Origin: Gemmataceae bacterium
GTDB lineage: Bacteria; Planctomycetota; Planctomycetia; Gemmatales; Gemmataceae
Length of the DNA stretch: 64,000 bases
Direction: 5' to 3'
Assembly: GCA_901538445.1 (NCBI GenBank)
Contig: LR594584.1
Location: 4,309,006-4,373,005, forward strand
Shown here piece by piece: positions 322-5,514 of the stretch (the stretch's first letter is position 1; each line of letters opens with the position of its first letter). Under the pieces are notes generated by a model. The model searched no databases. It was given only the letters and a program-made list of their open reading frames with translations, and was not told where the DNA came from. A program made the position numbers and the translations under genes.

Positions 322-1010
322 CTCTGCACCTCTTGAGGCGGGGCGTGCGGTCCCGTATGGACGCGCGGCCCCGGCACACGCCGCGCTGCGGGAGCGCGAC
401 GGAGTAAGCACGGCACGGCGACGGGCCGGCCAGCGGGTTAAGGGCGAACGAGGCGTGAGAGAGGGAGTCGCTCGACGTCCCGGTGAGGAGAGCCGGGGGG
501 CGGTGTCGGCGGTCCGAGAGAGAAAGGCGATCCGCGAGGCGCCCCGATGAGGAGTCGGGGTCCGGGGGCGACGGTGAGGAGCCGTCGTGCCCCGGTGTTA
601 TATATGACTATATCGATTTACTTGATCAAGATGCTTCAGTCTGTTTCGTGGATTTGGTGCTCGCGGGATCGCGAACTTTGTCAACTCCGAGAACCCACAG
701 GTTGTGAAAATCGCGATGTGCAAGGAAAAGTGGAAATTCTCGCGGCGGATTTTCCTCGGAATTGTTTCTTACACTCCGAGTTGATTGGTTGAACGGCCCC
801 TCTTCAGGTTCCTCACGTGATTCGAGTTGCGGAATCACCAAGCTACTGAGTCGTCATTTCGCTCGCGTGGTGCGAGCACGTCGCGCGAAATACCCACCTT
901 GGCTGTCGCAATTGCAACCCGCGAAACCCGGTTTATCATCGTCAGCGTCGCAACGAACTCCTCACCGGCCGGCCACCGGCCGCCTGACCTAACACGAACA
1001 GGAGAAGACC
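322..1010. other. Long intergenic region between divergent genes
   Basis: About 690 bases separate the lipoprotein (minus) from the Cys/Met-rich gene (plus). The 590-800 stretch is clearly AT-richer than the surroundings (TATATATGACTATATCGAT near 600). The reading frames crossing this region show no recognisable protein pattern. It probably holds promoters for both flanking genes; one promoter-like site is listed separately. Confidence 0.5.
912..939 (+). promoter_or_regulatory. Predicted sigma70-type promoter of the Cys/Met-rich gene
   Basis: TTGCAA at 912-917 and TATCAT at 934-939 are separated by 16 bases. This gives a leader of roughly 65 bases before the ATG at 1011, which has an AGGAG ribosome site at 1000-1004. 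Predicted from consensus only. Confidence 0.4.
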
Positions 1011-1463
1011 ATGGTGACCGCGATGATGAACCCGATGTCCGCCGCCAGCACCACCACCCCGAGCACCGGCATGGGCATGCCGATGCCGGCCATGGGGCCG
1101 AACATGGTCATGGTGCCCCGCTGCAAGATGAAGATGGAGAAGTGCGCGGGCGGCATGAAGATCACCTGCACCTGCACCGACCCGGCCGCCTGCGCTATGA
1201 TGCAGAACCTCTGCAAGATGATGGCCGGCGGGATGGTGTCGTGCTGCTGCATGATGAACGGCATGATGGTGTGCTGCTGCAACCTGACGATGGGCATGTG
1301 CAAGTGCGAGATGACCGCCGACGGGTGCTGCGTCACCTGCACGAGCGGCGACGCCGAGTGCTGCAAGATGATCCAGTGCTGCTGCGACTGCATGACGGCC
1401 TGCATGGCGGCCGGCTGCACCTGCTGCATGACGATGGGCGGCACCCCGGTGTGCTGCTGCTGA
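1011..1463 (+). CDS. Cysteine- and methionine-rich small protein, putative metal-binding
   Basis: A 150-residue protein in which I count 30 Cys and 30 Met, about 40% of all residues. Cys occur as CCC and CC runs and as CxC and CxxC pairs; Met occur as MM pairs and in the Gly/Pro-spaced N-terminal stretch MGMPMPAMGPNMVMV. The first 37 residues hold no Cys, and the chain ends in VCCC. There is no clear signal peptide or membrane segment. Soft thiolate and thioether ligands at this density suggest a metallothionein-like or Cu(I)/Ag(I)-sequestering role, but that is inference from composition. It is not a recognised metallothionein by motif. It is monocistronic: own promoter-like site, AGGAG ribosome site 7 bases before ATG, strong terminator 54 bases after the stop. 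An Rrf2-type regulator follows on the same strand. Confidence 0.85.
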   Translation: MVTAMMNPMSAASTTTPSTGMGMPMPAMGPNMVMVPRCKMKMEKCAGGMKITCTCTDPAACAMMQNLCKMMAGGMVSCCCMMNGMMVCCCNLTMGMCKCEMTADGCCVTCTSGDAECCKMIQCCCDCMTACMAAGCTCCMTMGGTPVCCC

Positions 1464-1516: not shown

Positions 1517-1550
1517 GACCGACCCGCCGACCTTCGGCGGGTCGGTCTCG
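1517..1550 (+). terminator. Intrinsic terminator after the Cys/Met-rich gene
   Basis: A perfect 14-bp stem (left arm 1517-1530, right arm 1534-1547, 3-base loop) is followed by TCGTTTGT. The strong stem and the position 54 bases after the stop codon support a rho-independent terminator, though the T run is short. Confidence 0.75.
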
Positions 1551-1702: not shown

Positions 1703-2167
1703 GTGAAACTGTCGCGCAAAGCGGATTACGCCCTGCGGGTGTTGTTCACGCTCGTCGATCGCCGCGGCGAAGGCCCAATTTCGATGACCGCGCTCGCGAA
1801 GCAGAACGATGTGCCGAAGCGGTTCCTCGAACACATCATGCTCGATTTGAAGTCACAGCGGTGGGTCGAGAGCACCCCCGGACGCACCGGCGGGTACGCT
1901 TTGGCTTGCTCACCGGACGACGTCACACTCGGTCAGGTCGTCCGCTTCTTCGACGGCGTCATCGCCCCGGTCGGGTGCGTGTCCGTCACCAACTTTGAAG
2001 GTTGCAGCCAGGCCGCAACCTGCCGATTCCGGCGCATTCTCCTGGACATCCGCAACCTCACCGCCGCCCACCTCGACAGCGCCACGCTCGCCCAGGTCGC
2101 CCGCAACCAACCTGTCGCGGAGCGCGAGGTTTACAGCCTCGAACTCATCGGCGGCGACGGGATCTAG
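1703..2167 (+). CDS. Rrf2-family transcriptional regulator
   Basis: 154 residues. The N-terminus (MKLSRKADYALRVLFTL) followed by a winged-helix segment with VPKRFLEHIM and GGYALA is diagnostic of the Rrf2 family (IscR, NsrR, CymR relatives). The sensor region holds three cysteines spaced C-x8-C-x5-C (GC at about residue 92, GC at about 101, TC at about 107). IscR and NsrR ligate an Fe-S cluster with three cysteines in this region, so an Fe-S or redox-sensing regulator is likely, but the spacing is not identical to IscR and the ligand is inferred. Length is normal for the family. It has its own near-consensus promoter and may regulate itself and nearby genes such as the Cys/Met-rich gene upstream. 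Confidence 0.88.
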   Translation: MKLSRKADYALRVLFTLVDRRGEGPISMTALAKQNDVPKRFLEHIMLDLKSQRWVESTPGRTGGYALACSPDDVTLGQVVRFFDGVIAPVGCVSVTNFEGCSQAATCRFRRILLDIRNLTAAHLDSATLAQVARNQPVAEREVYSLELIGGDGI

Positions 2168-2779: not shown

Positions 2780-2783
2780 GGGC

Positions 2784-3215
2784 TCACACCGCCGCCCGGC
2801 GCTCGCCGAGCGACCCAAGGAGCGTCTGCGCCACGCGCTGGGCCTGAACGCGGAGTTCGGGGACCGCGGTCCCGCCGCCGTCGCGGGCGCGGACCCGCGG
2901 TCCGACGGAAGACAGCGCCGGCGACACCTTCCCGCCCGATCCAACGAGTTCCTCGTTCGGGGCACCCTCGATCCCCAGCCGGAGCGGGTCCGGCCGGGCC
3001 AGCCCCTTGCGTAACAGCCCTTCGAGCCGCGCGTCACCGGCCGATCGCACTTCGGTCGCCGGTCCGGTGCAGTTCAGAACCGCCCCACTGAAACGCGCGC
3101 AACGCGGTCCACCCACCGCGGGGGCGGAACTCACCTCCACGGCGGCGTGGAACTTTCGGTTCGTCCGCTCCCGGGGCCAGTGGAACGCGTCCCGCGGGTC
3201 ACAGTCGTCTCGACC
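2784..3215 (-). pseudogene. C-terminal remnant of a FAD/NAD(P)-binding protein
   Basis: The minus-strand frame encodes a C-terminal fragment only. NCTGPATE, then GLARPDPLRLGIEG, then VSPALSSVGPR, then TAVPELRVQAQRVAQTLL follows the order seen at the end of FAD-NAD(P)-binding proteins of the NAD_binding_9 type (NCTGP, RPDPLGLG, GP..G..WE.TAVPE.R.QA). The Rossmann N-terminal two-thirds are absent: the frame is closed by TGA at 3216-3218. There is no plausible start with a ribosome site. I read it as a 5'-truncated pseudogene. The family call rests on remembered motif order and would need a profile search. Confidence 0.55.
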
Positions 3216-3340: not shown

Positions 3341-3413
3341 TGGAGCGAAGGAGATTCGAACTCCTGGCCTCTTCGTTGCGAACGAAGCGCTCTACCAACT
3401 GAGCTACCGCCCC
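3341..3413 (-). tRNA. tRNA-Ala, anticodon CGC
   Basis: A full 73-base cloverleaf on the minus strand: GGGGCGG acceptor arm, AGCTC...GAGC D-arm, anticodon stem CTTCG/CGAAG with loop TTCGCAA (anticodon CGC), T-arm AGGAG-TTCGAAT-CTCCT and discriminator A. The acceptor stem contains the G3:U70 pair that defines alanine identity. CCA is not encoded (CAT follows the discriminator). Confidence 0.95.
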
Positions 3414-3504: not shown

Positions 3505-4605
3505 TCAGAAGTTCGTGCGGGCGCGGCGCAGCTTGTCGTGGTACAACCGCACCCGGTCGTCGTCCTGCTGGCTCTTGAACACCTCGACGAGCCGGCACAT
3601 CGCCTTGAACACCTCGTCCTTGTCCGCACTGTACACGGTCTCGACCCAGAGGAACGCCCACATCGCGTCCCGGGGCTTCGGGGGTGCCGCGGTCAGGTAG
3701 ATCTCGCCGAGCATGCTGAACGCAACGGCCCGAACGGCCGGGTCCTTCGTCGCGGCGATCACCGCCTCGATCGGCTTCACCCCGGTGAGCGAGTCGCCCC
3801 CAGCGATCGCCTTTGCCGCCGCCTCGTACACCGTTAACTTCTCCTTGGCCGCCCCGGCCGGGGCGGTCTTGAGCAGGTCGGCCGCGGCGACCTGCGCCGC
3901 GGCGGCCCCGGTCCGGGTCCGGATCTGCGCGTCGATCTCCTGCATCTGTGCTTCCAGCAGTAGGTCGGCCGGGAGCCCCGAGTCCTTCTTGGCCATCTGC
4001 TTCCAGGTCCGGGCCACGTCGTTGAACTTGTTCATCTCGGCGTAGATCCGGGCGGCGGCCCGGGTCGCGTACCACACCTCGTACCCGGTCTTGTAGTCGT
4101 TGACGAACCCGGTCCAGTTGTCGGCGGCCTCGGCCCCGAGCTTCGACCAGTCCTCGTCGTAGGCGGTTTCGTCGGCGATCCGGCTGGCCATGAGCGAGAG
4201 CTTGAAGTCGAGGTACTTCTTGGACCCCGCGGGGGCGGCCCCGGCCTTCTTCTTCAGGTCCACGTACCCGAGCCGGGCCGCGGCGTAGTCGGCCTTCGTC
4301 TTCTTGTCCTCGAGGCCCACGAGCCGCAGCACCTCGCCCCGGTCCACCCCCGCCATCTCGCCCGGCACCACCTTGACCACGTCCGACGGGGAGACGACGG
4401 CCAGCGTCTTCTTGTCCGGCCCGACGACCTGCAGCCCGGCCGGGGCGAACACGAGCGTGCCCTCGTAGTTCTTGATCGACCCGTCCTTCTTGTCGCGGAC
4501 CGAGATCTTGTCCGGGGCGGTCACCGGCTGCCGCCCATCGACCGCCTCGACGAACAGTGTAATGCCGGCGAGAACGACGAGGCCGCGTGCCACCTGCCGA
4601 ATCAT
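3505..4605 (-). CDS. Secreted helical-repeat protein, hypothetical
   Basis: 366 residues with an N-terminal signal peptide (MIRQVARGLVVLAGITLFVEAV, cleavage probably after VDG). A short beta-rich part follows (residues about 35-85, with VFAPAGLQVVGPDKK), then long amphipathic helices rich in Ala, Lys and Asp that look like TPR-type solenoids. No catalytic motif was seen. The signal peptide and the upstream DNA are near-duplicates of those of the gene at 4642-5514. It is the last of three minus-strand genes transcribed in the same direction. It is probably a periplasmic scaffold or binding protein of a lineage-specific family; function unknown. Confidence 0.7.
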   Translation of the reverse strand: MIRQVARGLVVLAGITLFVEAVDGRQPVTAPDKISVRDKKDGSIKNYEGTLVFAPAGLQVVGPDKKTLAVVSPSDVVKVVPGEMAGVDRGEVLRLVGLEDKKTKADYAAARLGYVDLKKKAGAAPAGSKKYLDFKLSLMASRIADETAYDEDWSKLGAEAADNWTGFVNDYKTGYEVWYATRAAARIYAEMNKFNDVARTWKQMAKKDSGLPADLLLEAQMQEIDAQIRTRTGAAAAQVAAADLLKTAPAGAAKEKLTVYEAAAKAIAGGDSLTGVKPIEAVIAATKDPAVRAVAFSMLGEIYLTAAPPKPRDAMWAFLWVETVYSADKDEVFKAMCRLVEVFKSQQDDDRVRLYHDKLRRARTNF

Positions 4606-4641: not shown

Positions 4642-5514
4642 TTAACGGTATGTTGCCATCTTTCGACAAAGGGGCCAAGCCCCTCGAACGACTTTTCGCG
4701 GGCTGGTGTGTGCCGGGCACTGCGGGGCGGGCGCAACGAACCCCGTGTCGCACGCGCCGGGGACCGCCGCCCCCGCCCCGCTCGCCGGGGGCGGGTCGCT
4801 CGTCGGAGGCCGCTCGAGGAAGAACCGGCCGCCGGCCTTCTGGTACGCGGCCTTCAATTCCGGGTGCGCGTCGAGGAGGTCACAGTACCGGGTCCACACC
4901 TCGGGGGCGATGACCTCGGTCCCGACCTTGATCGGGACCATCTTGTCCGCGGCGTTGGGAACCTGCTTGACCTCGTTGAACTTGTGGATGTTCTCGACGT
5001 TGAAGATGTTGGTCCCTACCTTCTCGAAACTGGCGGCCAGTTTCGCTGGGTTCTTGATGAGCGCTTCGTTGGCGGTCACGAGCACCCGCTGGATCTCGAA
5101 GTAGGAATCGAAGAACGCGCTCTTGAGCTGTTTCACCTTTTCTGGCGGCGTATCGGGGGTGATCGGTTTGAGCCCGCTCTGGGCGAACTGGAACAGGGTC
5201 GTCCACTCTCTGAGCGCGTTGCCCCACTCGGCGGTCGCAGCCTTCTGATCCATCAACGTCGCGGCCCTGGCTTCGTAGAGCCTGGCCAGTTCCTTGCGGA
5301 ACTCGGCGTTGCGGAAGGCTGGCCCCGGTTTGTCGCTCGTGCCGACCGCGTCTCTCAAGAGTTTCCCGGCCTCATCGAACTTCCCGTCTTCGCGGAGAGC
5401 CCGGGCAACGCCGAGCTGTGCGGGATCGGCGGCCGGCTGTTGGCCGGCCACGGGTTCGACGAACAGCCTCAGGCCGCCGAGAACGACGAGGCCGCGTGCC
5501 ACCTGCGGGATCAT
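4642..5514 (-). CDS. Secreted protein, apparent chimera of its two neighbours
   Basis: 290 residues from ATG 5512-5514. The signal peptide (MIPQVARGLVVLGGLRLFVEP) closely matches the gene at 3505-4605, and the sequence just upstream also matches. From about residue 60 to 235 it matches the C-terminal 180 residues of the large protein at 5667-9254 (shared runs include EWTTLFQFAQ, FFDSYFEIQRVLVTAN, FEKVGTNIFNVEN, PEVWTRYCDLLD). The last 50 residues are Pro/Ala/Cys-rich and look like read-through into non-coding DNA. The shared module is well conserved, so it is probably a functional domain. Whether this chimera is expressed is unknown. Confidence 0.6.
   Translation of the reverse strand: MIPQVARGLVVLGGLRLFVEPVAGQQPAADPAQLGVARALREDGKFDEAGKLLRDAVGTSDKPGPAFRNAEFRKELARLYEARAATLMDQKAATAEWGNALREWTTLFQFAQSGLKPITPDTPPEKVKQLKSAFFDSYFEIQRVLVTANEALIKNPAKLAASFEKVGTNIFNVENIHKFNEVKQVPNAADKMVPIKVGTEVIAPEVWTRYCDLLDAHPELKAAYQKAGGRFFLERPPTSDPPPASGAGAAVPGACDTGFVAPAPQCPAHTSPRKVVRGAWPLCRKMATYR

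Follow-up and report, generated by a model that had tools for sequence, protein, structure and literature searches.

What use does a bacterium have for a protein in which two of every five residues carry sulfur? The question is raised by a gene in a 64,000-nucleotide stretch of a Gemmataceae genome (GenBank assembly GCA_901538445.1, contig LR594584.1), which as a whole we call the window. The gene runs from ATG to TGA at positions 1011-1463 of the plus strand, and its 150-residue product, referred to here as the CM protein for its Cys and Met, contains exactly 30 of each, a figure given in an earlier note and confirmed by direct count. This places 60 sulfur atoms in a chain of 15.5 kDa, or 12.4% sulfur by mass. 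For comparison we took 2,452 six-frame ORFs, each of 100 residues or more, from the window itself and from 40 stretches of 20 kb chosen at random in genomes that carry the family. The CM ORF with its 40% Cys+Met is the maximum of this set, which has a mean of 3.0% and a 99.9th percentile of 12.7%; every other ORF stays at or below 13.3%. The first 37 residues include 10 Met but no Cys, in line with the Met-rich, Cys-free N-terminal third described in the same note, and residues 1-32 form a disordered tail of Met, Gly, Pro, Ser and Thr, the Met being spaced as MxM and MxxM. The Cys occur in CxC, CC and CCC clusters. Tyr is absent from the protein, as are aromatic residues altogether.

Is this ORF a deliberately expressed gene, as had been proposed, or an artefact of the reading frame? 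A clear Shine-Dalgarno sequence, AGGAG, is seen by eye at 1000-1004 (plus strand), 6 nt before the ATG, and comparable sites precede most of the homologues; a sequence scan places an intrinsic terminator with a GC-rich 14-bp stem at 1517-1547 (plus strand). Both of these look real. The promoter that had been claimed along with them fares less well, as the weak sigma-70-like site TTGCAA-16-TATCAT at 912-939 (plus strand, some 70 bp ahead of the ATG) has 9 of 12 matches where 0.4 such sites are expected by chance, which is within chance. Because homologues are found in relatives and show a dN/dS of about 0.2-0.6 in the CM frame (from a codon comparison of Gemmataceae and near relatives), we regard the ORF as a protein and not as a reading-frame artefact. 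The homologues keep the Cys and Met load, which supports the proposal of deliberate expression, and the codon evidence indicates that the family is real and under purifying selection.

The family is patchy and wide. Homologues occur in 19 of 59 relatives, of which genome G058 is marginal (18 of the 59, without it, have a homologue of similar length). Of the 397 genomes searched for the class, 62 have one, not counting the marginal G058 and G226; in the rest of the phylum homologues are scarcer than in the class. Within the window's own genus, 5 other genomes have the gene and 13 lack it. When 84,980 species genomes were scanned, it turned up also in Verrucomicrobiota, Armatimonadota, Omnitrophota and Clostridium luticellarii, so that with Planctomycetota and a few clostridia the family spans at least five phyla; the search for homologues of like composition that had been suggested within Gemmataceae is thus answered well past that group. 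Six further genomes with intact or decayed copies are found among 226 of the clostridial order, and C. luticellarii alone has the gene among 348 genomes spread across the clostridial phylum; the clostridial copies form a restricted group, which is suggestive of an origin by transfer. One clostridium carries two tandem, near-identical Met-rich genes (locus L124, 4992-5456 and 5595-6059, plus strand) and, elsewhere in the same genome (L127, about 4375-4518), a C-terminal CM remnant beside the riboswitch-controlled partner gene, which is described below. No CM relatives were found among viral contigs, plasmids or PDB sequences. The window protein matches 0 Pfam and 0 NCBIfam families, and the comparison of 63 members with Pfam gives scattered weak matches alone (best E 0.083), metallothionein not among them; diverse members compared with NCBIfam have no match there either.

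Does such a chain fold? The AlphaFold2 model of the window protein, built with 63 diverse alignment rows, has a block-mean pLDDT of 89-97 over residues 41-150 and a pTM of 0.71; residues 1-32 have a pLDDT below 50, and the predicted fold covers residues 38-150. The first repeat is predicted to consist of strands 39-45 and 48-54, helix 58-70 and strands 76-82 and 85-91, and the second of strands 96-102 and 105-111, helix 115-133 and strands 137-142 and 145-149, for a total of two helices and eight strands in two beta-beta-alpha-beta-beta repeats. Aligning the two halves with hhalign gives a probability of 97.9% and 44% identity over 50 columns, with an E-value of 3.5e-13 that is inflated by composition bias; the secondary structure agrees with a duplication. 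The fold, as modeled, is an internal duplication of a unit of about 50 residues. Neither Foldseek (best E 0.58) nor VIA-align (best Z 3.7) finds a convincing fold for the model in the PDB, a result that does not prove the fold to be new.

The 63 members allow us to ask what has been held fixed. The number of Cys per chain varies from 15 to 35 and that of Met from 3 to 71, and their sum is 33-89 residues, or 21-48%, so the exceptional content is kept by the homologues while the ratio drifts. The extremes are L076 with 34 Cys and 3 Met and L183 with 18 Cys and 71 Met; L074 also has 3 Met, and still others combine 15 Cys with 55 Met. Within the folded core, chains with more Cys tend to have fewer Met (rho -0.71). 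The shared feature across members is the sulfur load, which counts for a role in holding sulfur. Met positions exchange mostly with Leu, Ile and Val, above the expectation from composition (L-M log-odds +2.4); judging from the alignment, Met seems to occupy hydrophobic positions that ordinary proteins give to these three residues, which low-Met relatives also have there. One would predict this pattern had the hydrophobic sites that tolerate Met been loaded with as much sulfur as possible. A column-by-column test does not support free exchange between Cys and Met: it is below the composition expectation (log-odds -2.3), and Cys columns are more fixed than Met columns, many of them being at least 90% Cys. 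Cys is thus under positional constraint and is not plain interchangeable bulk sulfur; a ligand or structural role fits it too, and we count both the conserved columns and the rare Cys-Met exchange against a store.

We turn our attention to the genes around the CM gene. In a survey of 64 CM loci, the surrounding six-frame ORFs were clustered and the key clusters identified; these comprise Rrf2 regulators, PALP enzymes nearest to cystathionine beta-synthase (CBS) and cysteine synthase (CysK), PLP enzymes nearest to cystathionine gamma-lyase and gamma-synthase (CSE/CGS), the DUF2292/OscA protein of sulfur starvation, cysteine dioxygenase and an amino-acid permease. To measure enrichment, genes within 5 kb of the CM gene at 88 loci were compared with those in 80 control units of 10 kb, drawn at random from ten of these genomes. 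Rrf2 genes are found at 32 of 88 loci against 0 of 80 controls (p 4e-11), CBS/CysK at 22 against 2 (p 1e-5), CSE/CGS at 9 against 0 (p 0.002) and DUF2292/OscA at 5 against 0 (p 0.04), where the shared ancestry of the CM loci makes these p-values overstate their independence; cysteine dioxygenase, at 6 of 88 against 1 of 80, is not significantly enriched. At least one sulfur marker lies within 5 kb at 46 of the 88 loci, and about half of the loci have none, which counts against a store. Because the gene arrangements differ among Gemmataceae, Isosphaeraceae, Verrucomicrobia and Omnitrophica, the association with sulfur genes must have arisen, or been kept, repeatedly. In the window itself, an Rrf2-family regulator gene with a GTG start lies downstream of the CM gene at 1703-2167 (plus strand), and its best equivalog match is CymR, below the cut-off. 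In Gemmata sp. IIL30 (locus L041) the CM gene, an Rrf2 gene and a CysK/CBS-like gene follow one another on a single strand. These findings link the CM gene to Cys and Met metabolism.

A further neighbour is a small gene that lies upstream of the CM gene and divergent from it, at a distance that is mostly 0.5-0.8 kb and reaches about 1.7 kb. This gene is present within 5 kb at 60 of 88 CM loci and in 0 of 80 controls. Its products, the partner proteins, are mostly of 66-84 residues with the motif FVxCP...IYRxAYEQA and usually end in Asn; in the AlphaFold model a single helix (residues 48-70) is confident and the ends on either side of it are poorly defined, and the members scanned have no family match in Pfam or NCBIfam. 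A profile search of the 397 genomes finds both genes in 55, CM alone in 7, the partner alone in 1 and neither in 334 (Fisher 2e-58). The two co-occur even in genomes G126 and G027, where they are on separate contigs. Among clostridia, all 7 genomes that carry a CM gene, whether intact or decayed, have the partner, and none of the 5 tested genomes that lack a CM gene has it; in G829 both genes are broken. The partner family is, as far as we have found, undescribed, and a nearly obligate companion of the CM gene. In the window's genome the partner gene lies on the minus strand at 4302910-4303161 of the contig (G000:C3, equal to 3911-4162 of L188), about 6 kb before the first base of the window. 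The ORF at 2504-2779 of the window, considered for this place, fails the partner profile.

How are the two genes controlled? In three of the five clostridial genomes with an intact CM gene, C. luticellarii and two others, an Rfam SAM riboswitch lies antisense to the gene, 218-253 bp past its stop codon; the other two genomes lack it. A near-perfect consensus promoter, TTGAC[AT]-N17-TATAAT, precedes each of the three aptamers by 16-17 nt, and the C. luticellarii riboswitch, the only one that we folded, has a terminator, with no convincing minus-strand gene after it. In the sense orientation, a SAM riboswitch is found 124-347 bp upstream of the partner gene in six of seven clostridial genomes, unlinked partners included. 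This evidence is limited to a small clostridial clade distant from the window's organism, and Rfam, run also on the surroundings of the window gene and on 22 loci from planctomycetes, Verrucomicrobia, armatimonads and omnitrophotes, gives no SAM riboswitch at any of them. There is a precedent in C. acetobutylicum, where antisense RNA is made from a convergent S-box when SAM is low, so that expression of ubiG-mccBA is confined to high SAM (PMC9943018; PMC2940859). In both cases a sulfur-related gene is closely followed by a convergent riboswitch that has a promoter of its own (PMC9943018), with the difference that the antisense target here is the CM gene and not enzymes that convert Met to Cys. 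As the survey in this published work counted 56 antisense cases among 8,039 SAM riboswitches, three at one small gene family are unlikely by chance. By analogy, we infer that in clostridia the CM protein would be made at high SAM and the partner at low SAM.

Opposite control, a near-obligate partner and neighbourhoods of Cys and Met genes are together best explained by storage and mobilisation, and we give a probability of about 0.55 to the CM protein being a store, or buffer, of sulfur amino acids. The fold would tolerate Met in place of almost all large hydrophobic residues and Cys at many other positions. The protein, probably cytoplasmic, would be synthesised when cysteine, methionine and SAM are plentiful and degraded in shortage, and the released Met could be converted to Cys, and back, by the products of the adjoining cystathionine beta-synthase and gamma-lyase genes, which would be accompanied by the often adjoining, CymR-like Rrf2 regulator. 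The partner, apparently regulated opposite to the CM gene in clostridia, may be the mobilising factor, for example an adaptor for proteolysis. Storage, turnover and the role of the partner are put forward here as a proposal. The complete scheme, a two-gene bank in which a Cys/Met-loaded reserve, evolved for this purpose, would be filled and emptied through opposite control of it and of a small, dedicated mobilising partner, by antisense and sense SAM riboswitches in clostridia and possibly by Rrf2 regulators in other phyla, we offer tentatively and at somewhat less than even odds.

The main rival, since the Cys positions are conserved, is the combined thiolate and thioether store for soft metals that the earlier note put forward: a folded, metallothionein-like protein whose thiolates and thioethers would bind clusters of Cu(I), Ag(I), Cd, Zn or Hg for storage or detoxification, with the nearby sulfur-amino-acid genes supplying Cys for its synthesis. 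The CxC, CC and CCC clusters, the MxM/MxxM tail and the near-invariant Cys columns would all suit such a protein, and Rrf2 regulators are often Fe-S sensors. By eye, a P-type-ATPase-like gene is seen near the CM gene in two sister clostridia, which also counts against a sulfur store; the L075 member, again by eye, has a cation-efflux-like gene at a distance of about 4.4 kb. The neighbourhood as a whole points elsewhere, to sulfur-amino-acid genes: when 115 further near neighbours were scanned with Pfam, the 25 commonest families included none for metal resistance. Whole lineages have Leu, Val or Ile in place of Met, down to the 3 Met of L074 and L076, and others have as few as 15 Cys; several columns are at least 90% Cys, as a conserved ligand set would have them, but the total per chain varies from 15 to 35. 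Control by a SAM riboswitch fits a metal protein badly. The metal reading is thus not supported and we consider it unlikely; a store of sulfur amino acids is more likely than a metal trap. Known metallothioneins (bacterial SmtA and MymT, eukaryotic MT) resemble the CM protein in being small and rich in CxC and CC, and the window protein has no aromatics; unlike them, it has 150 residues, a confidently predicted repeat fold, an equal load of Met with a Cys:Met ratio that drifts in the family, a context of sulfur-amino-acid genes and SAM riboswitches, and no match to a curated family model. Our search of the literature on metallothioneins in planctomycetes found nothing relevant. If the CM protein does bind metal, a folded metal store built on both Met and Cys would itself be new in kind.

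Two other roles for so much sulfur appear improbable to us. As a buffer for thiols, sulfane sulfur or redox state, the protein would carry persulfide on its many Cys or scavenge oxidants with them, and use Met as a sacrificial sink for oxidants; some loci have genes for cysteine dioxygenase, an FAD enzyme and rhodanese-like proteins, which would agree with this, but the dioxygenase association is not significant, and the clostridial forms, Met-rich with few Cys, come from anaerobes. A sensor, in which the 60 Cys and Met codons or the protein itself report the supply and act on Rrf2 or the partner, would account for the tight co-occurrence with the partner, the frequent Rrf2 genes and the conserved fold, but a sensor does not have to be loaded with sulfur to the maximum along its entire length, and the ratio of Met to Cys varies greatly among members.

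Turning back to the sulfur store, we compare it with other proteins rich in these residues. The copper storage protein Csp is a four-helix bundle with inward-facing Cys. It and the Met-rich copper proteins CueP, CopK and PcoE likewise have many Cys or Met per chain; the two helices and eight strands predicted for the CM protein are not such a bundle. In function there is a likeness to seed 2S albumins and delta-zein, Cys/Met-rich proteins that store sulfur amino acids (PMC4335288, PMC4227475). These are eukaryotic seed proteins, however, and none of their Pfam families matches the CM protein. The YTV cell-wall proteins of planctomycetes are Cys-rich and from the same phylum (PMC8567305), whereas the window protein, lacking Tyr, has no YTV motif, and the CM family reaches other phyla. 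We have found no described family, fold or function for the CM protein. Bacteria bank carbon, nitrogen (as cyanophycin), phosphate and elemental sulfur; a bacterial protein whose dedicated role is to bank cysteine and methionine is not known to us. A full-text literature search found no bacterial protein sulfur store, which is weak evidence, as most subscription journals were outside its scope. The family offers a fold for which we found no PDB match, an undescribed partner gene and new candidate targets of antisense riboswitches, and these ideas can be tested in the cultivable Limnoglobus roseus, Singulisphaera acidiphila and Clostridium luticellarii.

Several observations concern the sequence next to the CM genes. 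At four of five clostridial loci, ORFs with runs of Cys and Met (e.g. ..KCCMCCCE..) are found upstream on the plus strand (L123 2400-2681, L124 4491-4781, L099 92-184, L122 4560-4682); we count them in favour of the sulfur store, and they may be leader peptides for attenuation or additional proteins rich in sulfur. In L123 a transposase-like ORF sits between this ORF and the CM gene. The clostridial 5' leaders also contain, by eye, 2-6 tandem mini-hairpins of the type GCTGACTGGATAAACCAGAGGC (L099 240-350, L121 about 4870-4970, L122 4720-4980, L124 4800-4960), which do not match Rfam and are a possible unrecognised cis-regulatory RNA. In the window, the minus-strand ORF at 2783-3140 by the Rrf2 gene clusters with FAD-binding proteins of other CM loci, one of them fused to cysteine dioxygenase, and is possibly a decayed remnant; a tRNA gene (Rfam RF00005) follows at 3341-3413 on the minus strand. 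A DDE_5 transposase-like gene lies on the same strand as the CM gene and about 1.2-1.45 kb upstream at L042, L044, L046-L049, L056, L057 and L061, and about 2.2 kb upstream at L041; a position and orientation near constant at ten loci, mostly of Gemmataceae, is odd for a mobile element. Finally, an inverted repeat, ATCAAA-N4-TTTGAT, is seen in the CM promoter region of three Isosphaeraceae-type loci only (L092, L175 and L179); absent from the 0.8 Mb of controls, it is a candidate Rrf2 operator.
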